Assembly (NCBI RefSeq): GCF_900215515.1
Contig: NZ_OBEI01000011.1
Coordinates: forward strand, 1 to 64,000
Source of the DNA: Persephonella hydrogeniphila
GTDB taxonomy: Bacteria > Aquificota > Aquificia > Aquificales > Hydrogenothermaceae
Direction: 5' to 3'
DNA length: 64,000 nt
Made by a program: the position numbers and the translations under genes. The stretch's first letter is position 1, and each line of letters opens with the position of its first letter. Below are positions 39,825 to 64,000 of the stretch, piece after piece. The notes under the pieces were generated by a model, which worked only from the letters and a program-made list of their open reading frames with translations, ran no database searches and had not been told where the DNA came from.

Positions 39825-40131
39825 GAACTAATTCCTTATAGGCACTCTAAAAACTAAAGCTTATATATTTCAAGGAGCTTTAGACGGCATTAGTTTCAAT
39901 TCCTTATAGGCACTCTAAAAACAGAGGGCCTCTAAAATGATAGACACTTTATTAGAAAAAGCGTTTCAATTCCTTATAGGCACTCTAAAAACAGGCTTAC
40001 GGCTGACTCCGTAGAAGTTCAGGAGATTGTTTCAATTCCTTATAGGCACTCTAAAAACTCAGAAACTCACCAATGTGTATAGCTGGGGGCTTGATGCTCT
40101 CGTTTCAATTCCTTATAGGCACTCTAAAAAC
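39825..40131 (-). CRISPR. CRISPR array, 5 repeats and 4 spacers, transcribed leftward
   Basis: Repeats are 30 bp at 39825-39854, 39893-39922, 39963-39992, 40029-40058 and 40102-40131; spacers are 38, 40, 36 and 43 bp. On the minus strand the repeat begins GTTTTTAGAGTG and ends GGAATTGAAAC, giving the canonical AUUGAAAC crRNA handle, so the array reads right to left. The leftmost repeat has four changes in its last bases (minus-strand sense), as expected for the leader-distal end. The leader is at 40132-40533, next to cas6. I saw no spacer matching elsewhere in the window by eye. Confidence 0.98.
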
Positions 40132-40533
40132 CCTTCAACTGCTTTCTTATTCTGTTTCCAAGAAACCATTGATATATCTTATTGATTTTAAATATAAAGA
40201 AAAAACGGAAAGCTGTCAAATTGAGTTAATTTTCGGTCGACCTCCAATCCTGCAAAAACTCCCGGGGATCGACAAACCATTGAAGCTCTAAGCTTGGATA
40301 GAAAAATCAGGCAAAATCTCAATGAGAATGAGTCCAGAAAAAGCCTCATTTTTTGAGATCGACAAATATTTGATATATCTATTTCTTCTCTAATGATGAA
40401 TAAAAATTGTGCAAAATCTTGTCTCATTTGAGCAATCAAACTGATGCTAAAAATCTCAAATAAACAAAATAACAAAAAATATATTGCAATAAAAATAAAC
40501 TTTTCTTAAAATAAGGATAGGAAGGGGGATGAT
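40132..40533 (-). promoter_or_regulatory. CRISPR leader
   Basis: 402 bp without a gene between the array and cas6. It holds the array promoter (40191-40219), a GGTCGACC palindrome (40235-40242), and imperfect direct repeats: TTGATATATCT at 40169-40179 and 40370-40380, and GATCGACAAA at 40267-40276 and 40357-40366. The far end is AT-rich and must also hold the cas6 promoter. Confidence 0.8.
40191..40219 (-). promoter_or_regulatory. Array promoter in the leader
   Basis: On the minus strand TTGACA (40214-40219), 17 nt, TATATT (40191-40196). This predicts transcription start about 50 bp before the first repeat at 40131 and confirms the array direction. Confidence 0.8.
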
Positions 40534-41304
40534 ATGAGACTAAAACTTACATTCCACACAGACAAAGAATATATATCTCTACCGCTTCATCATAATACTA
40601 CTCTTCAGGGTATGTTTTACAAAAGTTTACCTCCTCCCCTCTCGGAATTTTTGCACGAAATAGGTTTTTTTTATAACGGAAGACGTTTCAAACTATTCAC
40701 ATTTTCAAAAATAAATTCAGAAAAATTTGTTATTCTAAATGGAAAAAAAGGTAAGAGAGTAAAGTATAAAAGTCCTATCACTATACAAATCTCTTCAGGA
40801 ATCCCTGATATCACAAAAAATTGGGGAGAAACATTTTTAAAAAAACACAAAATAACTTTAGGAAAAAACGAACTTTATCTTGAATCTATAGAAGTAGTTC
40901 CTCAACCTAAATTTTCAGAAGATATGATAATCAGAACCTTAGCCCCAATAACTGTGTATAGAACATTTCAGGATGAGAAAAAGTACTATAGATACTACTC
41001 TCCAGATGAAGAAGAATTTGAAGAACTAATCAGAGAAAATTTAAGGAAAAAATACGAAATTTTAACAGGAAACACGCTGAATGAATTTAAAATAGAAATA
41101 AAGCCAAAAGGAAAAGTAAGAAAAGTTCTGTTCAAATATAAAGATTTTCCTATAGAAGGCTATGAAGGCAAGTTTATAATAAAAACAGATCCAGAACTTT
41201 TTAAAAAAGTCTACGATACAGGCTTAGGGGCGAAGAACTCACAGGGTTTCGGAATGGTAGAGGTTATGTCAGAAAATAAGAAAAAGATAAGTTTATATAA
41301 ATAA
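40534..41304 (+). CDS. cas6: CRISPR endoribonuclease Cas6
   Basis: Cuts the pre-crRNA 8 nt inside each repeat. 256 aa, RAMP fold, with the C-terminal glycine-rich loop GLGAKNSQGFGMVEV. An early histidine-bearing region (PLHHNTTLQGMFYKS) could supply catalytic or binding residues. It is the only Cas6, so it should serve both the III-A and I-B effectors. GAAGGGGG site upstream. First gene of the rightward cas run, divergent from the array. Confidence 0.93.
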   Translation: MRLKLTFHTDKEYISLPLHHNTTLQGMFYKSLPPPLSEFLHEIGFFYNGRRFKLFTFSKINSEKFVILNGKKGKRVKYKSPITIQISSGIPDITKNWGETFLKKHKITLGKNELYLESIEVVPQPKFSEDMIIRTLAPITVYRTFQDEKKYYRYYSPDEEEFEELIRENLRKKYEILTGNTLNEFKIEIKPKGKVRKVLFKYKDFPIEGYEGKFIIKTDPELFKKVYDTGLGAKNSQGFGMVEVMSENKKKISLYK

Positions 41305-47282: not shown

Positions 47283-48278
47283 GTGAAATTTATCGAAAAT
47301 TTAAATTCAAATCCTTTATTTACTTTTGGGGGATATATGGGAGCAATTGGAGGATTAATAGCTGATTTTAGTGGTATACCATATGCATATTTAGGAGCTT
47401 TAGGATTTGCAGGAAGTTTAGCTAGTATTGGAATCTGGCAAGAATATAAAAAACATAAATTATATGAGAAACCTTTTTTACCTATACCAGTTGTAATAAA
47501 TATTTCAAATCCTGCAGATAGCAAGAATGCTTTAAATCAACTTTCAAATGTTATTGAAAGAGAAGGATTTAAAGATCATCTGAAAAATTTAGAAAAATAT
47601 TTTGCAATTGATAAAGATAATTTAATTTTTGAATACAAAGGAGATATTTTTGATAAGGAAAAACTTAAAGATTTTCTAAAAATTTTAAAACATGAAATAG
47701 AAAAATTAGAACGAAAAATTCCTCAAGGAGACCAATTTTATATTGCATATATAGGACCTGTTAGTGTTTCAATTTTAGTTGGTGCAATTTTTGCACAGGA
47801 TGCAGTAAAGATATTCCAATATGATAAATCTATAAATGGTTATAAAAATGTAGCGGACATAAAAGATAGGATAATAAAAGAAAATATAGATACATTGGAA
47901 AAGTTTGATTTTATTGAAGTTATAAAAGAAAATAATGAAAAAGCCGTTCTTGCTATAGATATATCTTCTCATAAGATAAATTTTAATAGTTCTGCTATTC
48001 AATCTTTTGGAGATATTTTTTACCTAAAAAGTAAAGAATCAAAAGGAACAATTTCTTATAATGATAATTGGATAAGGTACATACAAGAAATATTCTTTAC
48101 TATTAATAAGTTACAAACAAATTATAAGGAAATAAAACTTGTCTATTCTATACCTATTTCTATAGGTTTAGGCCTTGGAATGGCGATTCAAAATTATTGG
48201 AAAATATTGCTTACCAATTATCAACAAGGAGAATACAAAGATTTAATTTATACAGATGAAGTTCAATATTTTTTATAA
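47283..48278 (+). CDS. Two-TM protein with a SAVED-like sensor domain
   Basis: 331 aa. Two N-terminal transmembrane helices (about 12-28 and 33-52) are followed by a soluble domain with two related halves. Each half has a strand, a GPVS/IPIS turn and a small-residue helix (IAYIGPVSVSILVGAIFAQD near 158 and LVYSIPISIGLGLGMAIQN near 290), the pattern of SAVED domains. No nuclease or protease domain is present. SAVED domains bind cyclic oligonucleotides, and Cas10 here can make them, so the simplest model is a membrane effector opened by cOA, like Cap14 of CBASS or the type III proteins Cam1 and Csx23. Start: GTG at 47283 with GAGGTAA upstream. Confidence 0.7.
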   Translation: MKFIENLNSNPLFTFGGYMGAIGGLIADFSGIPYAYLGALGFAGSLASIGIWQEYKKHKLYEKPFLPIPVVINISNPADSKNALNQLSNVIEREGFKDHLKNLEKYFAIDKDNLIFEYKGDIFDKEKLKDFLKILKHEIEKLERKIPQGDQFYIAYIGPVSVSILVGAIFAQDAVKIFQYDKSINGYKNVADIKDRIIKENIDTLEKFDFIEVIKENNEKAVLAIDISSHKINFNSSAIQSFGDIFYLKSKESKGTISYNDNWIRYIQEIFFTINKLQTNYKEIKLVYSIPISIGLGLGMAIQNYWKILLTNYQQGEYKDLIYTDEVQYFL

Positions 48279-48290
48279 GTAGGGATTAAA

Positions 48291-49991
48291 ATGCTAACAG
48301 CGATTAAAGACATTGGAGAAATTTTATTAGAAAAAGAGAAAAAAGATAAAATAGACATACTTCTCGAAAATCCAGATAGTAATGGAAGTTATAAAATTGT
48401 ATGGGTTTTAGAATTTGATAAAGATTTTAATTTTCAAAAAATTAGTGTTGAAGAGTTCAAAGGAGAAAAACCTTATATTTATCTTTATAAAAGAGCTTCA
48501 GGTTCTAATGCCCCTGATTTTTCTCCAACTTCAAGAATCACAGAACCAGAAAAAACTTTTACTAAAAAACTTTTAAAGTGGCTTGAAAATCATAAAGATA
48601 CTCCACAGATAGATAAAATTTACACTGAGCTTACAAACAATAAAGAAAAAATAATAAAAAAATTAGAAGATTTAAATAAACAAACTAAAGACAATAAAAT
48701 TCTAACAATAAAAGTTGATGGAAAATATCTTTATGAAATAAAAAATCCAGATTTTAAGCAGATTTTACTCGAAGACTATTTAAAAAAGATAAAAGAGATT
48801 TCTAAAAAAGACGGTGTTTGTAGTATTTGTGGAGAAAAAAAGGAAGAAGTTTTTACTACTTCTCAAATTTATAAGTTCTACACACTTGACAAAGAATGTT
48901 ATATAACAGGAGGCTTCAATAAAAAAAATGCATGGAAAAATTTTCCTATATGTGAAGAATGTTTTTTAAAAATAGATTACGGCAAAAAATTTATTGAAAA
49001 CAATCTGAATTTTAAGTTTTATGGTAAAAATTACTACCTTATCCCAAAACTGATTCTAAATATTCCAGAAGCTTTAGAAGAAATTAATGAAATTTTGTCA
49101 ACTCAAAATAAAAAAGTAGACCTTACACAAAAAAGACGGATAACAGATGATAAAGAAGAGATTTTAGATCTTTTAAAGGATTACAAAGATGTTATTAGTT
49201 TTTATTTTCTGTTTTTAAAGAAGGAAAATGCTGCAGAAAAGATTTTACTTTTGGTTGAAGATGTTTTTCCTTCAAGAATTCATAGGATTTTTGATACAAA
49301 AGAGCAAATAGATAAACTTTTTAATCAGGACTATAACTTTGGAAGATTAGTAAAGTTTTTAAATGAGTTTGATAAATTTTTCTTTGAAGTAGTAGATAAA
49401 ATCTTTCGAGGAGGAAGTCTTCAGTTTTCAACTGTTTTACAGATATTTAACAGAAAAATCCAGAATGAGTTTATAAATTCAAAAGACTATAAAAAAACAA
49501 CCTTAGATGCTCTCATGAATATAAAATTCTTTGAAGAGCTTGGTTTAATAAATTTTGAGGTAAAAGATATGGAAAATTCAAAATTTGATGAAATTTATGA
49601 AAAAATTGGAAAATCTTTAAACACGCCAGCAAAAAGGGGAATATTTCTACTTGGAGCTTTAACTCAGATGCTATTAAACATTCAAGGTCAGGAAAGAAAT
49701 AGTACACCGTTTTTTAAGAATCTAAAAGGTCTAAAAATGAACGAAGAAGATATAAAAGGACTTTTGCCTAAAGTAATAAATAAGCTCATAGAGTATGATA
49801 GATTTGATAAAGGGAAGAAGGAACTTTCAGAGGAAATAGCAAAAAACTTGCTCTCTCAGGAAAAGTTTGGATTGACAATAGATGAGATAAACTTTTATTT
49901 TGCTTCTGGAATGGCCTTATCGGGAGAAGTGGCAAGTATTCTTTATGAAAAAGGTGCAAAAGAAAATGAGACCAAAAGTCAGACTGTCTGA
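48291..49991 (+). CDS. cas8b: Cas8b/Csh1 (TM1802 type), type I-B large subunit
   Basis: 566 aa. The Cas8b zinc finger is visible (CSICGEKKEEVFTTS ... FPICEECF, near residues 178-226) and the C-terminal helical region has GIFLLGALTQMLLNIQ. It recognises the PAM and non-target strand in Cascade. It marks the switch from the III-A to the I-B gene set, 12 bp after the TM-SAVED gene. Its last 26 bp overlap the MntA start. Confidence 0.9.
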   Translation: MLTAIKDIGEILLEKEKKDKIDILLENPDSNGSYKIVWVLEFDKDFNFQKISVEEFKGEKPYIYLYKRASGSNAPDFSPTSRITEPEKTFTKKLLKWLENHKDTPQIDKIYTELTNNKEKIIKKLEDLNKQTKDNKILTIKVDGKYLYEIKNPDFKQILLEDYLKKIKEISKKDGVCSICGEKKEEVFTTSQIYKFYTLDKECYITGGFNKKNAWKNFPICEECFLKIDYGKKFIENNLNFKFYGKNYYLIPKLILNIPEALEEINEILSTQNKKVDLTQKRRITDDKEEILDLLKDYKDVISFYFLFLKKENAAEKILLLVEDVFPSRIHRIFDTKEQIDKLFNQDYNFGRLVKFLNEFDKFFFEVVDKIFRGGSLQFSTVLQIFNRKIQNEFINSKDYKKTTLDALMNIKFFEELGLINFEVKDMENSKFDEIYEKIGKSLNTPAKRGIFLLGALTQMLLNIQGQERNSTPFFKNLKGLKMNEEDIKGLLPKVINKLIEYDRFDKGKKELSEEIAKNLLSQEKFGLTIDEINFYFASGMALSGEVASILYEKGAKENETKSQTV

Positions 49992-50271
49992 AGAAGAAAT
50001 CAAAATAATAAAAGAAACTGCAAAAAAGTTTTTTGGAGGAAATGCAAAGGTTTATATTTTTGGAAGCAGAACAGATTTAGATAAAAAAGGTGGAGATATA
50101 GATATATTTATAGAAACAGATAAAAACATTTCTTTAAAAGAAGAACTTAAATTTTTGGTAGAGCTTGAGAAAAAGGGAATAGAAAGAAAAGTTGACCTAA
50201 TTATAAAAGCTCCAAACAAAAGAGAAAAATTCATTTTCAAAGAAGCAAAAGAAAAGGGTATTTTAATATGA
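49966..50271 (+). CDS. mntA: MntA nucleotidyltransferase antitoxin
   Basis: 101 aa from the ATG at 49966, inside the end of cas8b. A minimal pol-beta-type nucleotidyltransferase: GSR at 33-35 and DID at 44-46 (one residue shorter than the usual GSX10DXD spacing). MntA antitoxins AMPylate the tyrosine of their HepT toxin. hepT follows with a 4-bp overlap, so this is a complete HEPN-MNT pair set between cas8b and cas7. Confidence 0.88.
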   Translation: MRPKVRLSEEEIKIIKETAKKFFGGNAKVYIFGSRTDLDKKGGDIDIFIETDKNISLKEELKFLVELEKKGIERKVDLIIKAPNKREKFIFKEAKEKGILI

Positions 50272-50723
50272 ATTTTATAAAAGAAAATTTAGAAATAGCA
50301 AAGATTCATTTAGATAGATTGAAAAATGCTAAGGAAGAAATAATAGAAAAGAATTTAATTGAGAATTTAGACATAGATGATTTTGAAATAGTTAAAGTAT
50401 TAGATACTTTTATATTTAGATTTATTAAACTTCAAGATTATTTGGGACAAAAACTTTTCAGAAGGTTTCTTGAGATTATTGGTGAATATTATGAAAACAT
50501 GAGCTTCTTAGATGTTTTAGATAGATTAGAAAAATTAGAAATCATTTCTTCAGCGGATAGATGGATGGAAATTAGAAAACTAAGAAATAAACTGACACAT
50601 GAATATCCAGATGAAATAGAAGAGATGAAATTAGAACTTACAGAAGCTTTAAATGCAATTCCTGAAATAGAACTAACTTTACAAAAAATTGAGGATTATT
50701 TAAAAGAAAAAAATTTAATATAA
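50268..50723 (+). CDS. hepT: HepT HEPN toxin
   Basis: 151-aa helical HEPN RNase. The active-site motif RNKLTHEY (residues 106-113) fits RX4HXY exactly, including the tyrosine that MntA modifies. It overlaps mntA by 4 bp and ends 12 bp before cas7. An intact active site suggests a working toxin. It is the clearest of the toxin genes inside the cas operon. Confidence 0.88.
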   Translation: MNFIKENLEIAKIHLDRLKNAKEEIIEKNLIENLDIDDFEIVKVLDTFIFRFIKLQDYLGQKLFRRFLEIIGEYYENMSFLDVLDRLEKLEIISSADRWMEIRKLRNKLTHEYPDEIEEMKLELTEALNAIPEIELTLQKIEDYLKEKNLI

Positions 50724-51883: not shown

Positions 51884-51951
51884 GTTCATTAATGTAATAT
51901 CTTCAGCAGAAGAACTAAAACAGACTATTAATGTAAAAAATGAAAACCCTT
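51868..51951 (+). pseudogene. Possible remnant of a PIN-type toxin
   Basis: 27 codons overlapping the end of the antitoxin-like gene and ending over the next ATG. INVISSAEELKQTI resembles the last strand and helix of PIN domains and MKKFKF the first strand. The catalytic core is missing. Could be chance. Confidence 0.25.
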
Positions 51952-52236
51952 GAAGATATAAAACAGCTTTTAAATAAGCATAAAAAAGAGATAAAAGAAA
52001 AATATGGAGTCAAAAACCTGTATATTTTTGGTTCTTATGTTAGAGAGGAACAAACACCAGAAAGTGATATTGATATATTAGTTGAGTTCGAGAAAGGAAA
52101 AAAGACATTTGATAATTATATGGATTTAAAGTTTTACTTAGAAGATCTATTAGGTAAAAAAGTTGATTTAGTTATCAAAGAAGTTGTTAGGAAAGAGTTA
52201 AAGAAATATATATATGGAGAAGCTATAAAATCTTAG
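51940..52236 (+). CDS. Orphan MntA-like nucleotidyltransferase
   Basis: 98 aa. The full GSX10DXD motif is present (GSYVREEQTPESDIDI), followed by the KVDLVIKE strand that carries the third carboxylate. It is related to the MntA at 49966 but clearly diverged, so not a recent copy. No HEPN partner is adjacent: cas5 starts 17 bp later. It may protect against a toxin elsewhere or be left from a second HEPN-MNT pair. Confidence 0.85.
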   Translation: MKTLEDIKQLLNKHKKEIKEKYGVKNLYIFGSYVREEQTPESDIDILVEFEKGKKTFDNYMDLKFYLEDLLGKKVDLVIKEVVRKELKKYIYGEAIKS

Positions 52237-53017: not shown

Positions 53018-53266
53018 ATGGTATTATCTGCTAATGATTTAAAGACAAAAGGGATTTCATTTGTTGAAAAGCTTATTAAAAAATATAATGAAGTTTTTAT
53101 TACTGTAAGAGGCAAAAAGAAGTTTGTTATTCTTCCTATTGAAGAATATGAGAAATTAAAAGAAGCCGAACTTGAAAAAATTATTAGAGAAGCAGAAGAA
53201 GATTATGAAAAAGGAAGATATATAAAAGAAACTGCTGAAGAACATTTTAAAAAATTAGGTATATAG
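53018..53266 (+). CDS. Phd/YefM-type antitoxin
   Basis: 82 aa. The N-terminal half has the Phd/YefM look (SANDLKTKGISFVEKLIKKYNEVFITVRGKKKFVILPIEEYEKLKE), a DNA-binding dimer fold; the C-terminal helix would bind the toxin. GAGG site upstream. The stop codon touches the TTG start of the toxin. Such antitoxins usually repress their own operon. Confidence 0.85.
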   Translation: MVLSANDLKTKGISFVEKLIKKYNEVFITVRGKKKFVILPIEEYEKLKEAELEKIIREAEEDYEKGRYIKETAEEHFKKLGI

Positions 53267-53539
53267 TTGTATGCTCTTGTTTTTACTGAAACTTTTCAAA
53301 AAAGAGAAAAAGAGTTCCTAAAAAAACATAAAGATCTAATTCCAAGATATAAAAAGGTTTTAAGACTTTTAGAGCTAAATCCTTATCATCCTTCATTAAG
53401 ATTACATAAATTAAAAGGAAAATTTAAAGACAAATACTCTGTTTCTATAACAATGAGTTATAGAATAATTTTAACATTCGCTATAGTAGAAAAAGAAATA
53501 GTTTTAATCGATATAGGTCACCATGATGAAGTTTATTAA
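53267..53539 (+). CDS. RelE/ParE-superfamily toxin
   Basis: 90 aa from a TTG directly after the antitoxin stop. The fold is clear from the C-terminal half (SYRIILTFAIVEKEIVLIDIGHHDEVY), typical of RelE/YafQ-like ribosome-dependent mRNA interferases; basic residues in the middle (RLHKLKGKFKDKY) fit RNA contact. Its last 17 bp overlap the cas3 start, so translation of toxin and Cas3 is linked. Confidence 0.85.
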   Translation: MYALVFTETFQKREKEFLKKHKDLIPRYKKVLRLLELNPYHPSLRLHKLKGKFKDKYSVSITMSYRIILTFAIVEKEIVLIDIGHHDEVY

Positions 53540-55865
53540 TTCAAACATTCTCTCCCATCCTGATAGACTTTTAGAAGATCACGTATCACAGGTAGTAGAA
53601 TTAGCTAATGATTTTTATTCAAATTTACCTATAAATGATGAAATTTTGAGAGATATACTCACTATCATAGCCTTTTCACATGATATCGGAAAATCTACAC
53701 AATTTTTTCAGGAATATATCAGAGGAGATAAAAATTTAAAAAATAAAAAAGAAACTAACCATGCCCATCTTGGAGCAGTTATAGGACTTTATCTGACAGA
53801 CAAATATCTAAAATCTAAAAATATAGATAATCCTTTTCTTCTTTCCCTTGCTTATATTCTCCCAAAGCGGCACCATTCAAACCTAAGAGATTTTTTAGAA
53901 GATTTAAGTATAGACGAACAAGATATCGATATTCTTCAAAAACAGATAAAATCAATAGATAAAGAAGAATTCAAGATATTCCTAAAAAATGTAAAATTAC
54001 AGGATAAAAATATAATAAACTTTTCCTTTGAAGAGATAGATCTTGACCAGATAAAACAAAATCTTAGAAAAATAAAAAGATTTACAAGAAAACTAAAAAA
54101 TCAAAAATCTTTAGAATATTACATAAATACAGTTCTTCTATTTTCCCTTTTGCTTGATGCAGATAAATCAGATGTAGGAATAAAAACAGACAAAAATATT
54201 CTCTTTAAGGAAATTCAAATAAATCCTAAAATCGTAGATAATTTTGTTAAAAATTTGTCCACCACAAAAACACATATAATCAACCTCAGAGAAAAAGCAT
54301 ACAAAGAAGTCTCAGATAAAAAAATAGATATAAACAAAAAGATTTATACTTTAACTCTTCCTACAGGATTGGGAAAAACGCTAATATCATTCAAAATAGC
54401 TTTAAAAATAGCTCAAAAAGTAAAAAAAGAAAAAAACAAAGATTTGAAAATTATTTATAGTCTTCCTTTCTTGTCAATAATTGAACAAAATTACAATGTA
54501 TTTGAAAAAGTTTTAGAAAACTCAAATATCAAATTAGATTCGTCTGTTATCCTAAAACACCACCATTTGACTGGTTTTAAATATAAAGAAAAAGAAGATG
54601 AATTTGATTATGACACATCAAGGATTTTAATAGAAGGATGGAATAGTAAAATAATTACCACTACATTTATTCAATTTTTTTATTCATTAATTGGGAATAA
54701 AAACAAAATGCTTAGAAAATTTCACAAATTTGCAAATTCTGTGGTGATTCTTGACGAAATTCAGTCAATTCCACATAGATACTGGCTACTTCTTAGAAAA
54801 ATTTTGACAGAGATGGCTGAAAGGTTTAATTTCTATATAATTTTTTCAACAGCAACACAGCCGTTAATTTTAGAAAAAGAAAATTACACAGAGCTGATTA
54901 ACCACAAACCATACTTTGAAAAAATAAACAGATACACAATAAATATAGATAAGAACCCTAAGACTATAAAAGACTTCTCAAACTCTTTAAAAATAAATCA
55001 AGAAAAAAGCCATTTATTTATTATGAATACAGTTTCAGCTGCCAAAGAATTATACCAGCAGTTGAAGAAAGAGTATGAAAACGAAAAAATAATATTTCTA
55101 TCTACACATATAATTCCAAAACAAAGATTAGAAAGAATCCAAAAACTAAAATTAAGTGAAGGCAAAATTGCTGTGTCAACTCAGCTTGTAGAAGCAGGAG
55201 TAGATATAGATTTTGACATTGTTTATAGAGATTTTGCACCATTTGACAGTTTAAACCAGTCTGCAGGTAGATGTAATAGAGAAGGAAAAAAAGAAAAAGG
55301 AGAATTTTTTGTTATCAAATTAAAAGATGAAAATGGAAGAGAGTTTTCATCGTATATCTATGATCCTGTTTTACTATCAATAACAGATGAGATCTTACAA
55401 AACCCCAGATATGAAGAAAAAGATGTTTTTAATCTTATAAATGAATACTATCAAAAGCTTTCATCAAGGAAGTCAGATAAAGAATCTCTGGATTTACTTG
55501 ATATGCTGTATTCCTTAAAATTTTCAGGAGAAAAAGAGAAAGGTAAAATCAGTTCTATTCAGGATTTTGTTTTGATAAAAGAGGATATTTATAAAGAAGA
55601 TGTCTTTATTGAAATAGATGAGGAAGCAAAAGAAGTTTGGAAAGAGTTTTCAAATATATGGAAATTACCTGATATATTTGAAAGAAAAAAAGCTTTTGAC
55701 AGTATAAAAGCAGATTTTTATAAATTTGTAGTTTCTGTGCCAATAAAAGGCAATCCACCTCCTATAGAAAATAATTTTAATTATGTTCCTTATGAAAATT
55801 TGGATAATTATTATGATCTGGAAACAGGTTTTAAAGTGAAAGGAGACCTATATTTTGAGTTTTAG
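53523..55865 (+). CDS. cas3: Cas3 nuclease-helicase
   Basis: 780 aa: an N-terminal HD nuclease (FSHDIGKSTQFF, later RHHSNLRDF) fused to an SF2 helicase with LPTGLGKTLISF, VILDEIQSIPHRYW, FSTATQPL, STQLVEAGVDIDFD and QSAGRCNREG. All catalytic motifs are intact. ATG codons at 53523 and 53526 both lie in the toxin gene. A strong hairpin lies right after its stop. Confidence 0.96.
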   Translation: MMKFINSNILSHPDRLLEDHVSQVVELANDFYSNLPINDEILRDILTIIAFSHDIGKSTQFFQEYIRGDKNLKNKKETNHAHLGAVIGLYLTDKYLKSKNIDNPFLLSLAYILPKRHHSNLRDFLEDLSIDEQDIDILQKQIKSIDKEEFKIFLKNVKLQDKNIINFSFEEIDLDQIKQNLRKIKRFTRKLKNQKSLEYYINTVLLFSLLLDADKSDVGIKTDKNILFKEIQINPKIVDNFVKNLSTTKTHIINLREKAYKEVSDKKIDINKKIYTLTLPTGLGKTLISFKIALKIAQKVKKEKNKDLKIIYSLPFLSIIEQNYNVFEKVLENSNIKLDSSVILKHHHLTGFKYKEKEDEFDYDTSRILIEGWNSKIITTTFIQFFYSLIGNKNKMLRKFHKFANSVVILDEIQSIPHRYWLLLRKILTEMAERFNFYIIFSTATQPLILEKENYTELINHKPYFEKINRYTINIDKNPKTIKDFSNSLKINQEKSHLFIMNTVSAAKELYQQLKKEYENEKIIFLSTHIIPKQRLERIQKLKLSEGKIAVSTQLVEAGVDIDFDIVYRDFAPFDSLNQSAGRCNREGKKEKGEFFVIKLKDENGREFSSYIYDPVLLSITDEILQNPRYEEKDVFNLINEYYQKLSSRKSDKESLDLLDMLYSLKFSGEKEKGKISSIQDFVLIKEDIYKEDVFIEIDEEAKEVWKEFSNIWKLPDIFERKKAFDSIKADFYKFVVSVPIKGNPPPIENNFNYVPYENLDNYYDLETGFKVKGDLYFEF

Positions 55866-55887
55866 AGAGGGAGGGTCTCCCTCCCTA
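55866..55887. terminator. Hairpin after cas3
   Basis: GAGGGAGGG-TCT-CCCTCCC starts one base after the cas3 stop and covers the last bases of the 24-aa frame on the other strand. It is followed by ATTTG rather than a T-run, so it may be a leaky terminator or an mRNA-stabilising hairpin. Confidence 0.6.
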
Positions 55888-55959
55888 TTTGTAGAGAATT
55901 TTTGCAATAATCGCTGAAAATAGAGTCATTGCTAAGATTATAGCAAGAGTTTGATCCAT
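55885..55959 (-). CDS. 24-aa hydrophobic peptide between cas3 and cas4
   Basis: The ATG at 55959 is preceded by AAAGGAGGTG with 8-nt spacing, one of the best ribosome sites in the window. The peptide (MDQTLAIILAMTL then FSAIIAKILYK) is one membrane helix with a lysine-ended tail, the shape of type I toxin peptides. It is antisense to the cas direction and ends in the post-cas3 hairpin. Its promoter would have to lie near or inside the CRISPR-like repeats at 55982-56041. It is too short for homology; the call rests on the ribosome site and composition. Confidence 0.5.
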   Translation of the reverse strand: MDQTLAIILAMTLFSAIIAKILYK

Positions 55960-55981
55960 ACACGTCACCTCCTTTTTGGCT

Positions 55982-56011
55982 TAATTTTCAGTGCCTATCA
56001 GGAAACAAATT
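55982..56011 (+). repeat. Degenerate CRISPR-like repeat
   Basis: Aligned without gaps to the array repeat it matches 19 of 30 positions, with a core AGTGCCTATCAGGAA that is 14 of 15. The small stem CCT/AGG is kept and the change falls in its loop. It directly abuts the next repeat with no spacer. Confidence 0.65.
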
Positions 56012-56041
56012 GTTTTTAGAATATCTATGAGGGATTGAAAC
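56012..56041 (+). repeat. Solo CRISPR repeat upstream of cas4
   Basis: 30 bp starting GTTTTTAGAAT and ending GGGATTGAAAC. It matches the array repeat at 25 of 30 positions and keeps the AUUGAAAC handle. It reads on the plus strand, opposite to the array but along the cas mRNA. The cas4 ATG follows 41 bp later. Cas6 could cut here. Confidence 0.85.
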
Positions 56042-56082
56042 TGATAGTTGCGATTTGCTTTTTAAATCATCAAATTTATCTT

Positions 56083-56577
56083 ATGGAAAAAATAAACATT
56101 AACGGAACTCTTATCTGGTATTACTATATTTGTCCAAGGGAGGTTTGGTTAATCGGACATTCTATCGAAGCAGATCAGGAGAGTGATTTTCTGATTTTAG
56201 GAAAGCATATTCACGAAATTTTTTACAAAAGACAGAAAAAGGAATTTTTAATAGATAACACAGTCAAAATAGATATCCTTCCAAGTAAAAAAGTCATTGG
56301 AGAAATAAAAAAATCATCAAAGTATCTAAAAAGTGCCAGAATGCAAATATCATTTTATCTCTATTATCTAAAACAAAAAGGATTCTTGATAAATGGTGAA
56401 CTTTTAATTCCTGAAGAAAGAAAAAGAGAAAAGATTGTTCTAACAACAGAGATAGAAGAGGAATTAGAAAAAGCAATAACAGAAATAAATAAGATATTAA
56501 ACCAGGAAAAACCACCAAAACCTGTTAAAATTCCATATTGCAAAAATTGTGCTTACAAGGAGATGTGCTGGAGTTAG
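56083..56577 (+). CDS. cas4: Cas4 exonuclease
   Basis: 164 aa from the ATG at 56083; an in-frame TTG at 56035 lies inside the solo repeat and would add unrelated residues. RecB-like nuclease: first Cys in YYICPREVW, GKHIHE, the catalytic VIGEIKKSSKY, and the terminal cysteines YCKNCAYKEMCW for an Fe-S cluster. It trims prespacers and selects PAMs for Cas1-Cas2. The ribosome site is weak, so its translation may depend on upstream processing. Confidence 0.92.
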   Translation: MEKININGTLIWYYYICPREVWLIGHSIEADQESDFLILGKHIHEIFYKRQKKEFLIDNTVKIDILPSKKVIGEIKKSSKYLKSARMQISFYLYYLKQKGFLINGELLIPEERKREKIVLTTEIEEELEKAITEINKILNQEKPPKPVKIPYCKNCAYKEMCWS

Positions 56578-57709: not shown

Positions 57710-57958
57710 GTCTGTAAGTATTAATACATAAAGGTAATTTCTAAAAAAAGTTATATAAAAAAGTTTAGAAAAAATTTTTAAAGGGCAAATTTTTGATTAA
57801 AAAATTCTCAAAATAGTTTAGAAATTTTCTTTAAAAATTCTAATTTTTTTTGCAACTTTTTAAAAAAATTCTCAAAATAAATTAGAAATTTTCATTATTT
57901 ATATTAAGTAAAGTTTAATCTTGCAAAAAATGTTGTTTGGAAGTAGGATAAGATTACT
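57710..57958. repeat. AT-rich gap after cas1 with two long direct repeats
   Basis: 249 bp, extremely AT-rich, with no gene. A roughly 33-bp sequence beginning AAAAAATTCTCAAAATA and ending TTAGAAATTTTC occurs at 57797-57829 and 57861-57893, 64 bp apart, with about two differences. Each copy is itself an imperfect dyad (AAAATTCT/AGAAATTTT). It lies at the border between the cas operon and the prophage and looks like an operator or iteron pair, or leftover leader-like DNA. Confidence 0.6.
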
Positions 57959-58282
57959 ATGATGTTAAAAACTGAATTTCAAAACTTATTAGAAGATATA
58001 AATCAATCTATCGATGTAATTCTTTTTACGAGAAAAGGTGAAAAGATTTTTGAACCTGAATTTGGATGTGGTATTTGGGAATTATTGGACAGAGGAATTG
58101 AGCAAGTTCCTGTTTTGATAGCTTCTGTTTATGATGCTTTAAATAAGTGGGAAAAAAGGATTAGGGTTGATAAAGTAAAGATAAATTCTTTTGAACCCAA
58201 CACTGGGCAAGTTTCTATTGAGATTTATTACACTATGAGGAACAACAATGAAAGAGGAATTTACAGAGGAAATTTATCTTAA
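57959..58282 (+). CDS. Phage baseplate wedge protein, gp25/GpW type
   Basis: 107 aa. The gp25-like pattern is visible: NQSIDVILFTRKGEKIFEPEFGCGIWELLD, then VYDALNKWEKRIRVDKVKI and a beta-rich end. It builds the baseplate of contractile tails. It points right while the rest of the tail genes here point left. ATG codons at 57959 and 57962 are equally possible. Confidence 0.82.
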   Translation: MMLKTEFQNLLEDINQSIDVILFTRKGEKIFEPEFGCGIWELLDRGIEQVPVLIASVYDALNKWEKRIRVDKVKINSFEPNTGQVSIEIYYTMRNNNERGIYRGNLS

Positions 58283-58445
58283 AGAGTTTTGGGATAATCC
58301 TGAAATGTATAGAGGGATAAAGCAAAGGGATTTAACTATTTTGAGAAATCTTACATATCCTGAATGGATGGCAAGAACAAATATTGTTGATGATGAGCTT
58401 GTCGGTAGAATGCTTGTTGAGCTCGGGTATATAGAAGAAGATTAG
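58248..58445 (+). CDS. Phage protein of unknown function
   Basis: 65 aa, acidic, helical (EEIYLKEFWDNPEMYRGIKQ, then a YPEWMARTNIVDDELVGRML segment). GAGGA site at 58236. It overlaps the gp25-like gene by 35 bp in another frame and ends over the stop of the convergent tape-measure gene. In P2-like phages a baseplate J-type gene follows here; this is not one. Not recognised. Confidence 0.55.
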   Translation: MKEEFTEEIYLKEFWDNPEMYRGIKQRDLTILRNLTYPEWMARTNIVDDELVGRMLVELGYIEED

Positions 58446-60964
58446 CCTATATACCCTTCACTATCGTTCTGTATATCCTTTAAAGCCTGCTCTAATGCCC
58501 ATTTTAGTTCTGTTGAGCCTTCTTTAAACGCTTGTATGATAACTTTCCTTATATCTTCTGGATTTTGCTTATCTGAAGTGATATTAACCGGAGCGTTAAT
58601 GCTGATTGGAGCTTCTAACTTTATTTCTCTTGTGGATTTTTCTTTTTGCTGAATTTCTCTGAATTCTTTTACTGCAGATGTCTTTTCCACTATTTCCTTG
58701 GTAAAATGGGAACTCTTATTTTGGATCTTAGTGAAGTCAGCTTTTTGTTCTTCTCCTCCAAAGCCAAAGAATTTTAAAATGCCTTTGGCTTTTTCTTTGA
58801 TTTTATCTATTATTTCAAATGGTTTTTTAATAAAAGATAAAATCCCATCTGTAAAGGTCTGAATTAGTTTTTGTCCTGCTTTTTTTAGGTCAAGGTTGAA
58901 TAGTTTTTGAACGAGCATATTTATAAGTTTTAAAAATAGTCCTATCGGTGAAAAATCTATTGCAAGTTTTAAGCCTTTGGAAAAGATGTTTTTTAGGGTT
59001 TGTAAGCCTGATAACAGAAAATCTTTAGCCGATTGGAATTTTTCTTTTATCCAGTTCCAGATAGAATCCCAGTTTTTATATAAAATAACAACAGCCGCAA
59101 CAACGCCAATAATAGCCAAAACCAGAGGTGAAAATAAAGCTGTTATTCCTCCAAGAATTGCCCCAAAAGGAGCAAATGCAAATGTAAACATCATTCCAAT
59201 AACCTGAATAGCAGCTCCAAGGGTTCCTAAAACTGCGATTAGTCCTATAATTGCCAAAACCATTTTAGATATTAGAGGATGTTTTTCTGCGAAACTACCT
59301 ATATTCTCGGCTATTTTTAGTAATAAATCTCCAACTGGAGCTAAATCTTTTGCTAATTTTCCTGCTGTTTTAATAAATGTTGCTTCAAGCTTTCTCCATG
59401 CAGTAGCTATTTTATCAAAGAATGTTTTTGTTTCTTCCCAGGCTTTATCTGTGGCATTTTTATAATTCCCTACAATTTTGTCAGCATTCATAGAAGCCTG
59501 TCCCATTGCCTTTAGTATTTTGGCAGATATATCTTCAGTTCCTTGTGTTCCAAAAATCTGTTCCATTATATTTCTGGCAAGTCTTGCATCCTGCTGGTAA
59601 AGAATTGAAAGTTCCGTTAGGAGTTTTGCATAGCCTTCTTTTTTCTTTTTATCATCATTACTTTCTATACCTTCTCTAATTTGAGCAAGTAGATGTTTTA
59701 TTCTTCTTGATTTGTCTTTGAATTTATCTTCTGGCAGAAGCTGGTCTATAACACCAGCTTTTGTTCCAGAACCAACCAGATTTTGCCACATATCAACATC
59801 GGTTAATCTTGCTTTGAAACTTTCTTTTATAGTGTCTGCAAGTTTATCATAGTTAAATGCTCCTTCTTTTGCTCCAGCTATAAGCGTTGCTGTGAATTCT
59901 TTTGCGTTTAGTCCTGCTTCTTTCATAAGTGGAGCATACTCCCAGAATGTGTCAAGTAAATCTCCAGCTTGGTCTCCTGCTTTTTGATATGCAGTTAAAA
60001 TAAGGTCAGATGCTTCTTTTGCTGAAATACCCCAAGCTTTATGCATCTGTGTAATTGAACGGGTTATTTCCTTTAAATCCCATTCTGGATTTATTTTTTG
60101 TAGTTTTAAAGCCTGTATAGTTGCTTCTTTAAGCTCTTTTGCAGACATATTAGACTGCTGACGAAACTGGGTATAAACTTCTGCTATCTGGTCGGGCATA
60201 GCTCCAGTTATTTCGTAAATGTCTGTTAAATCATTTTTAACAGCCTGCAGGTCTTTTGTTGTAAGCTCGGTTCTGGCAATAATAAGCCTTGCCTGTCTGT
60301 CTATTTGTGTAGCTTTGTCAATAATTCCTTTGATAGAAAATGAAGCTGCAGCTCCAATTCCTCCTATAGTAGCTATGCTTTTTAACTTTGCTCCAAAGGT
60401 TTCAAGGGTAGAAGATGAAAGTTTTTTCTCTAAATTTTCGTATTCTTTAGCTGTTTGCTGGAGTTCTTTCTGTAGTCTGTCATACTCTTTTGATAGATTT
60501 TTTGTTTCTATGCCTTCTTTTTGAAGCTGCTGTTTTAAGCGGGTTGCATCGTTAACTGCTTTGTTTTTAGCTTGAGATATCATTTTGAGTTTATCTTTAT
60601 TTTCTGCAAGCTCTAAGGAGTTTTTCTCTATTTCTCTTTTTAGCTTTTCTATTTTCTGTGCCAGTTCTTGGGATTTCCCTCCTGTTTTTTGATACTGCCT
60701 TTGTGTTTCTTTTAGCTCTTGATTTAGTTTTTTCTGTTTATTTTCAAGTAGTTTTATCTTCTTTGAAAGCTCAACCTCTGCTTTTGAAAATTTTTCTATA
60801 TCCTGTGATAGTTGTTTAAGTCCTTTTATAGTTTTTAAAGTGTTATCAAGCTGTTGTATTTTCCCTTCCAAATCTTTGGCTTTAGCTTTAATCTTATCTA
60901 CCTTTTTAGAAAATAAATCATTCACTCCTACAGCAAGCTGAAGTAAAAATTCTCTACCTTGCAT
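58442..60964 (-). CDS. Phage tail tape measure protein
   Basis: 840 aa. A long N-terminal coiled coil (about 15-205, Lys/Glu/Gln heptads), then the tape-measure core (ITGAMPDQIAEVYTQFRQQ, WGISAKEASDLILTAYQ, ATLIAGAKEGAFNYDKLADT), hydrophobic helices at about 560-650 (LAIIGLIAVLGTLGAAIQ, LVLAIIGVVAAVVILY), and a soluble tail. It sets tail length and probably helps DNA entry. It overlaps the end of the E' frame by a few bases, the usual P2-like arrangement. Confidence 0.92.
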   Translation of the reverse strand: MQGREFLLQLAVGVNDLFSKKVDKIKAKAKDLEGKIQQLDNTLKTIKGLKQLSQDIEKFSKAEVELSKKIKLLENKQKKLNQELKETQRQYQKTGGKSQELAQKIEKLKREIEKNSLELAENKDKLKMISQAKNKAVNDATRLKQQLQKEGIETKNLSKEYDRLQKELQQTAKEYENLEKKLSSSTLETFGAKLKSIATIGGIGAAASFSIKGIIDKATQIDRQARLIIARTELTTKDLQAVKNDLTDIYEITGAMPDQIAEVYTQFRQQSNMSAKELKEATIQALKLQKINPEWDLKEITRSITQMHKAWGISAKEASDLILTAYQKAGDQAGDLLDTFWEYAPLMKEAGLNAKEFTATLIAGAKEGAFNYDKLADTIKESFKARLTDVDMWQNLVGSGTKAGVIDQLLPEDKFKDKSRRIKHLLAQIREGIESNDDKKKKEGYAKLLTELSILYQQDARLARNIMEQIFGTQGTEDISAKILKAMGQASMNADKIVGNYKNATDKAWEETKTFFDKIATAWRKLEATFIKTAGKLAKDLAPVGDLLLKIAENIGSFAEKHPLISKMVLAIIGLIAVLGTLGAAIQVIGMMFTFAFAPFGAILGGITALFSPLVLAIIGVVAAVVILYKNWDSIWNWIKEKFQSAKDFLLSGLQTLKNIFSKGLKLAIDFSPIGLFLKLINMLVQKLFNLDLKKAGQKLIQTFTDGILSFIKKPFEIIDKIKEKAKGILKFFGFGGEEQKADFTKIQNKSSHFTKEIVEKTSAVKEFREIQQKEKSTREIKLEAPISINAPVNITSDKQNPEDIRKVIIQAFKEGSTELKWALEQALKDIQNDSEGYIG

Positions 60965-61411
60965 TTTCTATCTGCTCCTTTTGTTTTTCTTTGTATTTAA
61001 CTGTCATTTCTGCCACATATAAAAGCTCTGATGGAGTCATATCTAAAATCTCCTTATACGAATATCCAAACTCAACAAGTGCAGGTATTACTATTTCTGT
61101 GAATTGTCCGAATTCTTCGCTAAATACTGCAAAAAATCCTCATCAATTCCCATTACCTTCATTGCTATGTTATCTAAATCTTCAGCTGATAGTTTTTCTG
61201 CAAGTTCAAGCGACGGTATTTTTACTCCAAAATCGCAAAGTCTGTTAATTAGACAAAGTAAAAATCCATCTCCTTCTTCTGTTCCAAATACTGATTTTGC
61301 CTCTGTTTTTGCCTTTATCCTGTCTATAACTTTAACCTGTGTTTTTTTTATCGTGCATTTTTCTACCTTTTGTCCTTCATATTCAAAAGGCTCTATAAGC
61401 TGATATTCCAT
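60954..61411 (-). CDS. Tail assembly chaperone E+E' made by -1 frameshift
   Basis: The -1 frame entered at the T_TTT_TTG site (61130-61136) stays open to a TAG at 60954-60956. It gives about 94 residues of E followed by 58 residues reading FAVFSEEFGQF ... EILDMTPSELLYVAEMT ... KEQIENAR. The MTPSELL helix-turn pattern fits GpE'-type ends. In P2 the same heptamer makes the E+E' fusion that guides the tape measure. Its stop lies in the tape-measure start region. Confidence 0.8.
61091..61411 (-). CDS. Tail assembly chaperone E (zero-frame product)
   Basis: 106 aa, in the P2 GpE-like position directly before the tape measure: a beta-rich start (YQLIEPFEYEGQKVEKCTIK) and a helical C-terminal half (LLCLINRLCDFGVKIPSLELAEKL). 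Termination at 61091 gives the short form; a -1 slip near the end gives the long form. Confidence 0.8.
   Translation of the reverse strand: MEYQLIEPFEYEGQKVEKCTIKKTQVKVIDRIKAKTEAKSVFGTEEGDGFLLCLINRLCDFGVKIPSLELAEKLSAEDLDNIAMKVMGIDEDFLQYLAKNSDNSQK
61130..61136 (-). other. T_TTT_TTG -1 frameshift site
   Basis: Minus-strand zero-frame codons GAT TTT TTG CAG contain the heptamer in correct phase. The -1 frame (TTT TTT GCA GTA) is open for 58 codons to 60954. Confidence 0.85.
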
Positions 61412-61413
61412 AT

Positions 61414-62427
61414 CTATCCTCCGATATATTTAATTGTGATATTTGTTTTCCAACCTTCATCTTTTTTGATTGAATGAACAACCTTTTGGGCTTCATAAAC
61501 TCCACCTAAAAAGCCGTATCTATCCTCTGGGATAATAATCTTATCCCCTGCATTTACAGGCTGCCCGTAAATGGTAAAAGTTCCTTCTGCTCGTAGGTCT
61601 GTTTTTATCTTCTGGATATAGGCTTTTACTTTTTGTTTAGCTTCATTTAAATTGTGAGCTATGTCTTGAATTCTTACTGTTTTACCTTCTTTTGCACCAG
61701 GAACCTCTTCTTTATAAAGCTGAACCTGTTTTGAGTTTGGTTTGTAATAAAGCATTTCAACAAATTTGACTGCTTCTTTTTTTGCTTTAAATCTTATCTG
61801 GTCATCTATTAGGTAGTTAGTTAAATTAAGCTCTTGTGTTTTAAGTTGATTTGAAAAAACTACTACACCGCTTCTTATGAAAAATCTGCAGTTGTATTTT
61901 TTCGCTAATTGTTTTAAAAACTGTTCGTAAGATTGGTTTGCTATGTCTATTCTTTCTATAAAAACATCTGGAGTTTCAACTATAGATTTTTTACTGCATC
62001 TGTTTATTATTTGCTGGACAAGTTCTTTAAGCTGAATATTCTCATAGCCTTCATTTCTTATTTTTTTGAAATTGTCTAAATCTTCTAAAGCCTGGGAAGT
62101 TGCTTTAACTGTGAGGATAGATCCTTTAGCTTTGCAGGTAAAATCATCTCCAACATAAAATGTTCCAATTGTGAACTCTTTTAGACTGCCATCTTTATCG
62201 TTATAGATAATAGAAGCCTCTACTTTTGAATTTGTCTGGATTGCCCAATTTTTTAAAAATCTTCTGTCGTGGTTTGCAAGTGTAATCTGAAGCTCATCTT
62301 TTGCTTTTTCTTCAATGCTGTCTGTATAGACTATTTCAAGTATAAAGTTTGATATATCTCTTGTGGCATCTTTATCATTTATAAAAAGCTTTATTTTTGG
62401 CTGTCTAATTTCCATTATTCTTTCCAC
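61414..62427 (-). CDS. Phage late control D / tail hub protein
   Basis: 337 aa, GpD/gp27-like baseplate hub. It opens with MEIRQPKIKLFINDKDATRD (alternative first Met four residues earlier), then LQITLANHDRRFLKNWAI, IINRCSKKSIVE, and YEQFLKQLAKKYNCRFFIRSG, all typical of the late-control D family. It sits between X and E; in P2 D follows the tape measure. It overlaps the X gene by 13 bp. Confidence 0.88.
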   Translation of the reverse strand: MERIMEIRQPKIKLFINDKDATRDISNFILEIVYTDSIEEKAKDELQITLANHDRRFLKNWAIQTNSKVEASIIYNDKDGSLKEFTIGTFYVGDDFTCKAKGSILTVKATSQALEDLDNFKKIRNEGYENIQLKELVQQIINRCSKKSIVETPDVFIERIDIANQSYEQFLKQLAKKYNCRFFIRSGVVVFSNQLKTQELNLTNYLIDDQIRFKAKKEAVKFVEMLYYKPNSKQVQLYKEEVPGAKEGKTVRIQDIAHNLNEAKQKVKAYIQKIKTDLRAEGTFTIYGQPVNAGDKIIIPEDRYGFLGGVYEAQKVVHSIKKDEGWKTNITIKYIGG

Positions 62428-62639
62428 GCTGGTTTTGGTAGTTTTTTAACTGGTTTTTCTTCTAAAATGGGGATTTTTAGCCTTAAACCTGCTGGCAGTA
62501 GTGGTGAGTATAAAATTTCTGGTGGAATTTCTTTTTCATTAGCTTGCTGGATAATATCAAACTTATCTGAAACTCCATAGAACTGATAGCTTATCAAGTC
62601 CCATCTGTCGTCTTGTTTGCTGATATATTCAGTCCACAT
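62415..62639 (-). CDS. Phage tail protein X (LysM-like)
   Basis: 74 aa, GpX type: DDRWDLISYQFYGVSDKFDIIQ then ILYSPLLPAGLRLKIPIL, a LysM-like fold that may contact peptidoglycan. It overlaps both U (11 bp) and D (13 bp). Confidence 0.87.
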   Translation of the reverse strand: MWTEYISKQDDRWDLISYQFYGVSDKFDIIQQANEKEIPPEILYSPLLPAGLRLKIPILEEKPVKKLPKPAWKE

Positions 62640-63012
62640 TTTGAACCTCTAAAAACTTAATGTTTGCCGTGATTTTAACTATTTCTCCATTTTGTTTATA
62701 TTCAGCCTGTTTTTCTATACTTTCTATTACGAAGTTTCCAAGTATTTCCTGTCCTATTACAAGTGTTTCTGATTCTGTTTGGTTCATCAAATCAACCAGT
62801 TCTTGAAAATCATCATTGGGACTGTCAGAAAAAGGCTGAGCAATGTTTATAACCATTTCAAGTGTTCTTGCAGTTTCTCCAGTATCTTCAATAATTGGAT
62901 AGGTGTTTATTACATTGTGCTTAATTTTTCTTCTGCCAAGTCTTTCCTTAATACCTCTTGGATTAACTCCAAATATTTCAAAAGCTATCTGTCCGTAAGC
63001 TCCAAACATCAC
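62629..63012 (-). CDS. Phage tail protein U
   Basis: 127 aa, P2 GpU family: FGAYGQIAFEIFGVNPRGIKE, then RTLEMVINIAQPFSDSPND and an internal GNFVIESIEKQ. A tail completion protein. It overlaps the 184-aa gene upstream by 4 bp. Confidence 0.85.
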   Translation of the reverse strand: MMFGAYGQIAFEIFGVNPRGIKERLGRRKIKHNVINTYPIIEDTGETARTLEMVINIAQPFSDSPNDDFQELVDLMNQTESETLVIGQEILGNFVIESIEKQAEYKQNGEIVKITANIKFLEVQNVD

Positions 63013-63563
63013 TGATAACCTTCAAATATAAAGTTTTTTACAGTTGCAACATCAAAAATCTGCTCAATCATAAAAATAAGCTCTATTTCAAACCTATCTT
63101 GAAAACCAGGGAATTTTTTTGCGTCTTCTATGTCTTCATTATCTGTAAATAGAACAGGTTCAAGATTTCCTTCTATGTTTACAGGCTTTATAACTGCCTG
63201 TCCTTTTATGTAAAAGTTTTCAATATTTTCATTAATCTCGGGTAGCTTATCTACAGTCTTAAAAAAATGTTGCAGTAAAGTCGAATACTTCATTGCTGAA
63301 AGTAAAAGGCTGTCTTTATTATTTGCCCCTCTAATGTTTAGCTCTACTAAAACTGGCAGTGTAGCTATGTAATAAACGGCTGTTTTACCTTTAATTTCAT
63401 TGCCATTTTCATCGTAAACCTTTTTATATTCCTGTCTACCGATTTTAAATTTTTGTGGTTTTAATCTTATTTCCTGTAATTTATAAACATTTGCAGGGTC
63501 TATTATTACTGGTAGTCTTGTAAATTCTTGTAAGCTTTGTTGTAAATGTTTTAAAAATAGCAT
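63009..63563 (-). CDS. Phage tail-region protein of unknown family
   Basis: 184 aa, beta-rich and acidic. It lies between a gpG-like morphogenesis gene and U, where Mu/P2-like phages keep neck or tail-terminator genes, so a tail-terminator role is possible. Segments: RLPVIIDPANVYKLQEIRLK, an AVYYIATLPVLVELNIRG strand, and DRFEIELIFMIEQIFDV. Not recognised directly. Confidence 0.55.
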   Translation of the reverse strand: MLFLKHLQQSLQEFTRLPVIIDPANVYKLQEIRLKPQKFKIGRQEYKKVYDENGNEIKGKTAVYYIATLPVLVELNIRGANNKDSLLLSAMKYSTLLQHFFKTVDKLPEINENIENFYIKGQAVIKPVNIEGNLEPVLFTDNEDIEDAKKFPGFQDRFEIELIFMIEQIFDVATVKNFIFEGYQ

Positions 63564-64000
63564 TATAATCCCTCATACAAAATATTTTCTGCAAGCTGGT
63601 AAAGCTCATTAATCTGGTCATCTGTAAGTTCCATAAATGGTCTTTCTGGAATTTTTACTTTTTTTCTTCTTACAAATAAAACAATAGGCTTTCCTTTAGG
63701 TGGAACTCCTAAAATGGACTTTTCTTTAAAAACTATTTTCCAATCTTGGTTTTCAAGATTTTTTAAAACCCCTTTAACTCCAACTAAATCAACCATCTTT
63801 TTAATTTTCTTATTTGCAGGAATTGCAAGTTTTTTGGCTTTTTTAGGTTTAATTTCTCCTCCAAAGTGTAAGATAAGAGCATATTTAAGATTAGTTCCTA
63901 CTATAACTTTTCCATCTTTAACAGTTCCTGTGATTGAAGCTCTTAAATGTCCTGCATTTCGAAGTGGTGGCTTATTACCTTTCAGTTTTAGAGTTAAAGG
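63563..64000 (-). CDS. Phage virion morphogenesis protein (Mu gpG/P2 S-like), 5' end outside window
   Basis: The frame is open to the right edge of the window, so the Met at 63796 is internal. The visible 145 residues include GHLRASITGTVKDGKVIVGT, LKYALILHFGGEIKP and KKLAIPANK, the core of the tail-completion family of Mu gpG and P2 S, then a C-terminal part with FVRRKKVKIPERPFMELTDD. Confidence 0.78.
   Translation of the reverse strand, partial: PLTLKLKGNKPPLRNAGHLRASITGTVKDGKVIVGTNLKYALILHFGGEIKPKKAKKLAIPANKKIKKMVDLVGVKGVLKNLENQDWKIVFKEKSILGVPPKGKPIVLFVRRKKVKIPERPFMELTDDQINELYQLAENILYEGL

Follow-up and report, generated by a model that had tools for sequence, protein, structure and literature searches.

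In Persephonella hydrogeniphila, two copies resembling CRISPR repeats stand in direct succession between cas3 and cas4 and adjoin an oppositely oriented gene for a short hydrophobic peptide. In related genomes a peptide gene of this kind and a solitary repeat occur together at the same place, and the pair would represent the altered form, in this species, of a cassette conserved between cas3 and cas4 in the family. The anatomy and conservation of the cassette, the constraint on the peptide and the joint occurrence of peptide gene with solitary repeat are direct observations from the genomes compared. Our best reading, to which we give an even chance, is that of a CRISPR-linked, toxin-antitoxin-like cassette that has here become fused to a leftover array repeat; we infer the toxicity of the peptide and its repression via the repeat strand.

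The repeat pair

Within the window (the whole stretch of 64,000 nt that was analysed), the nearest true array lies at 39825–40131 on the minus strand and comprises four exact repeats and a terminal repeat with a decayed handle. Its repeat, GTTTTTAGAGTGCCTATAAGGAATTGAAAC (39893–40131, minus strand), served as reference; five further arrays of the same repeat type are found in the genome, three on contig C1 and one each on C2 and C3. The upstream copy of the pair, psiR1 (55982–56011, plus strand; TAATTTTCAGTGCCTATCAGGAAACAAATT), is a solitary degenerate CRISPR repeat matching the reference at 19/30 positions and at 14/15 over nt 9–23, with both its ends and the handle (3/8) lost. The downstream copy, psiR2 (56012–56041, plus strand; GTTTTTAGAATATCTATGAGGGATTGAAAC), matches at 25/30 positions, and at 26/30 when compared with two other repeat variants of the genome; it retains both ends, namely nt 1–9 and an intact ATTGAAAC handle (8/8), and its changes are confined to the middle, nt 10–22. 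A score of 25/30 was reached at no position in 4 Mb of simulated sequence with the same dinucleotide make-up, and the 14/15 core of psiR1 was likewise absent from 4 Mb, while a score of 19/30 arose at about 7e-5 per position. Chance is thus excluded as the source of either match.

The first-pass annotation had reported these matches and the lack of a spacer between the copies, and rescoring, the simulations and the measured gap of 0 nt bear it out on both copies; the orientation that it gave, along cas3–cas4 and opposite to the array of the window, is also correct. The CCT/AGG stem that it saw kept in both copies does exist as three pairs (one of them G–U in psiR2), but it is stable in no copy: folding gave no stable hairpin for psiR1, psiR2 or the canonical repeat, and the structure of the pair as RNA is unremarkable. 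The stem therefore carries little weight. A CRISPR array has a leader and repeats separated by spacers; at the pair no leader was found by profile, and no spacer lies between the copies.

A peptide gene conserved beside the solitary repeat

The first-pass annotation had overlooked a tiny gene of 24 codons that lies on the minus strand between cas3 (53523–55865, plus strand), the left border of the cassette, and the repeats. It runs from an ATG at 55959 to a stop ending at 55885, abuts psiR1 and encodes the putatively toxin-like hydrophobic peptide MDQTLAIILAMTLFSAIIAKILYK. A strong Shine-Dalgarno motif (AAAAAGGAGGTGA; 55966–55978, minus strand) precedes it, and psiR1, at the position of the cassette repeat of the relatives, is 17 nt from this motif. 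The ends of the tiny gene and of cas3 have a GC-rich hairpin in common (GAGGGAGGGTCTCCCTC; 55867–55883). The 24-residue peptide alone had no match in Pfam, and promoter scans pointed to no consistent transcription start, either for the tiny gene or for the strand of the repeats. A DNA match to the tiny gene at C2:162311 was rejected as a second copy, being the start of an ordinary larger protein.

A cassette made of a convergent tiny gene and, on the cas strand, a single solitary copy resembling a repeat is found between cas3 and leader in four relatives (G018, G024, G005 and G013). The order is cas3, the convergent gene for a hydrophobic peptide of 20 residues, the solitary degenerate repeat, leader and array; the tiny genes share the ribosome-site motif, end in a hairpin at the same place and have the repeat directly upstream. 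Their peptides are, in the order given, MDQEVYTLLLLILLVRLLRE, MDHETYTLILIILLLKLVRE, DHEVYTLILIVLLIKLLRE and MEHEIFTLIFLVLILKLLRG, to which the peptide of this species is only about 30% identical. All of these peptides, that of this species included, have 20–24 residues, a GRAVY of 0.9 to 1.4 and a C-terminus of K, RE or RG. The start codon of the G005 gene is changed from TTG to TTT, and in a further relative, G017, the tiny gene is truncated by loss of its start, with the repeat abutting the remainder.

The peptide sequence itself is preserved. In five of the six pairwise comparisons 10–14 third codon positions differ as against 1–3 second positions, and dN was below dS in all four pairs for which dS could be estimated; judged by these substitutions, the peptide of the relatives is under purifying selection, with constraint at the level of the protein. 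When 112 genomes of the order were searched with a profile of these peptides, the five cassette sites scored about 2e-7 or better and no other site improved on 0.006, which speaks for the specificity of the profile and is not an independent discovery because the five sites are its own rows. Around the weak profile matches in other genomes no copy resembling a repeat was seen, the best score there being 17–18/30. The sample of cassettes amounts to five to six loci, with this species represented by one strain.

The solitary repeat accompanies the peptide gene. Among 13 leaders with enough upstream sequence, all four that have the peptide gene also have a repeat-like copy (20–25/30), as against none of the nine without it (14–18/30), a distribution expected once in 715 by Fisher's test, uncorrected for the relatedness of the four positives. 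Leaders elsewhere in the same genomes begin without a repeat, and in G029, where leader and array directly follow cas3, peptide gene and solitary repeat are both absent. From the count and from G029 it follows that the solitary repeat goes with the peptide gene and not with the leader. The pattern of decay is also distinctive: the cassette repeats of the relatives keep 7–8/8 of the handle and fall to 3–4/8 over nt 1–8 (7/8 in G017), and array-terminal repeats show the reverse, with nt 1–22 kept and the handle lost.

An array at the same place in relatives

We collected Cas4 homologues from the family and inspected the DNA upstream of them. Four relatives (G018, G005, G024 and G017) have cas3, leader, array and cas4 in succession on one contig, and four others (G025, G022, G006 and G040) have an array immediately before cas4; the arrays share the orientation of the pair. 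In six of these relatives the terminal repeat ends about 32–50 nt before cas4 and psiR2 ends 41 nt before it (cas4 at 56083–56577, plus strand), the right border at which the arrays of the relatives end. Because the relatives hold an array at this place and psiR2 stands at the distance of a terminal repeat, leader and array have most likely been lost from the gap in this genome, and psiR2 is probably the surviving repeat of the lost array.

The search with the leader profile had no hit at the supposed deletion, and with the leader leaving no recognisable trace the case for array loss rests on synteny. A leader relic at 55866–55981 was considered, since pairwise alignment gave values of 0.015–0.045 for three of seven leaders, but was rejected as the profile had no hit there. 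One proposal of the first-pass annotation, the relic of a second array, is accordingly upheld for psiR2 by the full arrays at the same place and orientation in the relatives; psiR1 is by position a cassette repeat instead. In its present form the pair is private to this genome, so that the conservation of the pair upstream of cas4, which the annotation had raised, did not materialise.

Proposed mechanism

According to the cassette reading, a gene for a membrane-type peptide of 20–24 residues would be combined with a solitary repeat that starts just upstream of its ribosome site and faces away from it; in this species leader and array would have been lost, and psiR1 would have become fused to psiR2, the one array repeat that survived. 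The peptide would be a toxin, and a repeat-bearing RNA of the cas strand, trimmed by Cas6, would silence it, most likely through antisense pairing across the place where the peptide gene begins, or by acting as a guide in the manner of a crRNA. By the strand geometry, any RNA of the repeat strand would be complementary to a 5'-extended peptide mRNA. If the CRISPR machinery were lost or inhibited, the peptide would then be released, and the cassette may in this manner bind cell survival to the CRISPR system. In support of the cassette reading, the window contains cas6 and the type I-B effector genes in intact form; as a counterpoint, psiR1 is without a handle, and the handle-bearing psiR2 is not the positional orthologue of the cassette repeat.

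More specific versions are held with less confidence. A novel CRISPR-linked addiction module, in which a membrane peptide of about 20 residues would be silenced by an RNA with a solitary repeat opposite the gene start, is a tentative proposal somewhat short of even. The joint claim that this same module employs a Cas6-made crRNA by which the type III-A (Csm) complex of the locus cuts the toxin mRNA without raising the alarm is decidedly unlikely. The repeat strand being antisense to a 5'-extended peptide mRNA, such a crRNA would be perfectly complementary to it and Csm could cut, and the alarm would not be raised because the handle would pair with the target too.

Alternative readings and guide searches

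A true CreTA or CrePA system, in which a crRNA-like guide from psiR2 (56042 onwards) would direct the type I-B Cascade to the tiny gene's promoter, is improbable, despite the intact handle of psiR2 and intact effector genes. The guide would be the stretch between psiR2 and cas4 (56042–56082, plus strand), provided that psiR2 gave rise to a crRNA-like RNA. CreA requires guide nt 1–5 and 7–11 to match the toxin promoter (PMC8501985), and no such seed match of a guide to the promoter of the peptide gene was present in any of the five loci. The best site near the peptide gene in this genome agrees at 7/10 seed bases, no better than shuffled guides. The longest run there, the six bases TGATAG at 56000 (minus strand), does lie in the upstream region of the peptide gene and after TTTCC, but its site reaches 6/10, and TGATAG is expected 0.07 times by chance in 125 nt; the four sites obtained from the own spacers for PAM inference, one of them a near-exact self match, have inconsistent flanks. 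In the relatives, moreover, the would-be guide is mostly leader sequence. Pattern searches, on which all genome-wide statements for this genome are based, found two full matches to the 1–5/7–11 seed outside the locus, inside cation-transporter-like and hydrogenase-like genes. The earlier suggestion that the bases after 56041 target a promoter thus found no CreA-type target, these full matches being in unrelated genes; of the CreA-like crRNA proposed with it the anatomy stands, as a handle-bearing solitary repeat is conserved beside the peptide gene, and the guide is left without a seed target. Antisense or crRNA-like action on the peptide mRNA would be at least as likely as the CreTA mechanism.

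Rather unlikely, though weightier, is that both repeats are dead leftovers of the array that relatives have between cas3 and cas4, at this place in eight of them, and that is lost here, with the tiny gene an unrelated or dying neighbour. The unusable handle of psiR1 and the guide for which no target was found agree with this, and the altered start codon in G005 and the truncation in G017 mean that the tiny gene can be lost. It is opposed by the constraint on the tiny gene in the relatives, by its intactness here together with an excellent ribosome site, by the tie between solitary repeat and tiny gene, and by the changes in psiR2, which spare ends and handle, unlike those of array-terminal repeats. 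Cleavage by Cas6 of the cas3-cas4-cas1 mRNA at psiR2, by which the adaptation genes would be separated or autoregulated, was the first mechanism listed in the first-pass annotation and has in its favour that psiR2 lies on the mRNA strand, with ends and handle intact, and that the window has a cas6 gene. The form of the pair is not conserved, however, as relatives have in its place an entire array preceded by a leader of its own, and cas4 follows cas3 without interruption in G038, G036 and G033. The ribosome site of cas4, cited in favour of such cutting, is indeed weak, but it is equally weak in relatives with a full array upstream and is general in the group. Cas6 cutting is hence not specifically supported and seems very improbable.

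Comparison with known systems

In the literature covered, the toxins coupled to CRISPR are RNAs in CreTA and KilA-N proteins in CrePA (PMC8501985, PMC9458426, PMC12737573). With CreTA of haloarchaeal type I-B and Acinetobacter type I-F systems the present locus shares ectopic degenerate repeats among the cas genes and, next to them, a tiny gene that has a hairpin and a strong ribosome site. The 8-nt 5' handle that a crRNA-like RNA requires is complete in psiR2 and nearly or fully so in the relatives, and the cassette repeats of the latter resemble the psiR1 of CreA, which also keeps the handle and loses nt 1–8 (PMC9458426). The CreTA toxin, in contrast, is an RNA that works by means of rare codons in a mini-ORF (PMC8501985), whereas here the amino acids are conserved and synonymous sites are free to change; furthermore, the peptide gene is divergent from the repeat, and the cassette of the relatives has a single repeat followed by the leader. 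Since the seed test for CreA failed, with 7/10 at best, the locus is not filed as CreTA.

CrePA shares with the proposed reading the idea of a protein toxin, repression by a crRNA-like RNA and a physical link to cas genes (PMC12737573). CreP typically has a KilA-N domain, however, and this locus has a single hydrophobic peptide of 20–24 residues with neither a Pfam match nor a guide target. CreR also involves a repeat-like unit inside a cas operon, but is generally without a toxin and targets a cas promoter (PMC12737573); upstream of cas6 (39990–40560) the best site among those sharing nt 1–5 had 6/10 seed bases, with no full match. The type I pairs of Clostridioides difficile likewise feature, next to a type I-B array, a gene for a small hydrophobic peptide whose C-terminus is charged, and the present peptides agree with type I toxins in being hydrophobic, shorter than 60 residues and charged at the C-terminus (PMC6563280). 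The C. difficile peptides, of about 50–53 residues and with a separate antisense RNA, are merely adjacent to arrays (PMC6563280); here the peptide has about 20 residues, and a CRISPR repeat sits where the antisense RNA would run.

Our search of the CRISPR-toxin literature, which covered largely open-access papers, turned up no description of a peptide gene of some 20 codons that is tied to a solitary repeat in the interval from cas3 to the leader. If the peptide is toxic and silenced by the repeat, the range of CRISPR-linked toxins would come to include tiny membrane peptides and would reach another lineage of bacteria, and cells would have a further way of being held to their CRISPR-Cas genes and of sensing anti-CRISPR attack. 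The cassette also provides a search rule, namely to look between cas3 and leader for a lone repeat adjoined by a tiny ORF that has a strong ribosome site. It further prompts the question of whether repeats connect type I modules that neighbour CRISPR, those of C. difficile among them, to the CRISPR system.

Other features of the locus

Upstream of the pair the window holds cas6, a type III-A set (Cas10 with a Csm1 domain B, Csm2 and RAMPs) and a SAVED-domain protein, then a type I-B set of TM1802/cas8, cas7, cas5 and cas3; cas4 and cas1 follow downstream. The SAVED-domain protein (47283–48278), whose N-terminus is hydrophobic, is encoded after the type III-A genes and before TM1802/cas8. The type I-B operon also contains small gene pairs of the toxin-antitoxin kind at 49900–50723, 51940–52236 and 53018–53539: a nucleotidyltransferase-like gene with a partner, a lone nucleotidyltransferase-like gene (both judged by eye) and, between cas5 and cas3, a Phd/YefM antitoxin with a ParE/RelE-like partner (the partner by eye). 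In G040 (L042) a MazF-like ORF, assigned by eye, lies upstream of cas4 between the main array and a mini-array of degenerate repeat, spacer and degenerate repeat, a candidate for another CRISPR-linked toxin layout.

Between cas4 and cas1, the segment 56578–56777 contains fragments of a gene that is intact at this position in G018 (L069, 6249–6845). Phage baseplate and tail genes start 250 nt after cas1 (57959–64000). The best match to cas2 in the genome is on another contig (C3:26823, within G000:C3:24500-27450, L174). Upstream of it lies a phage-like gene that by eye resembles head-morphogenesis genes, and an array of 16 repeats follows downstream; the separation of cas1 and cas2 may be the work of a prophage. 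One spacer of the genome has a self target at 37/38 positions (G000:C4:121441-121478, L120), the flank of which, ATGAAAC, resembles the repeat handle. Two tandem AT-rich units of 64 nt, 70% alike, occupy 57799–57926 between cas1 and the phage genes.
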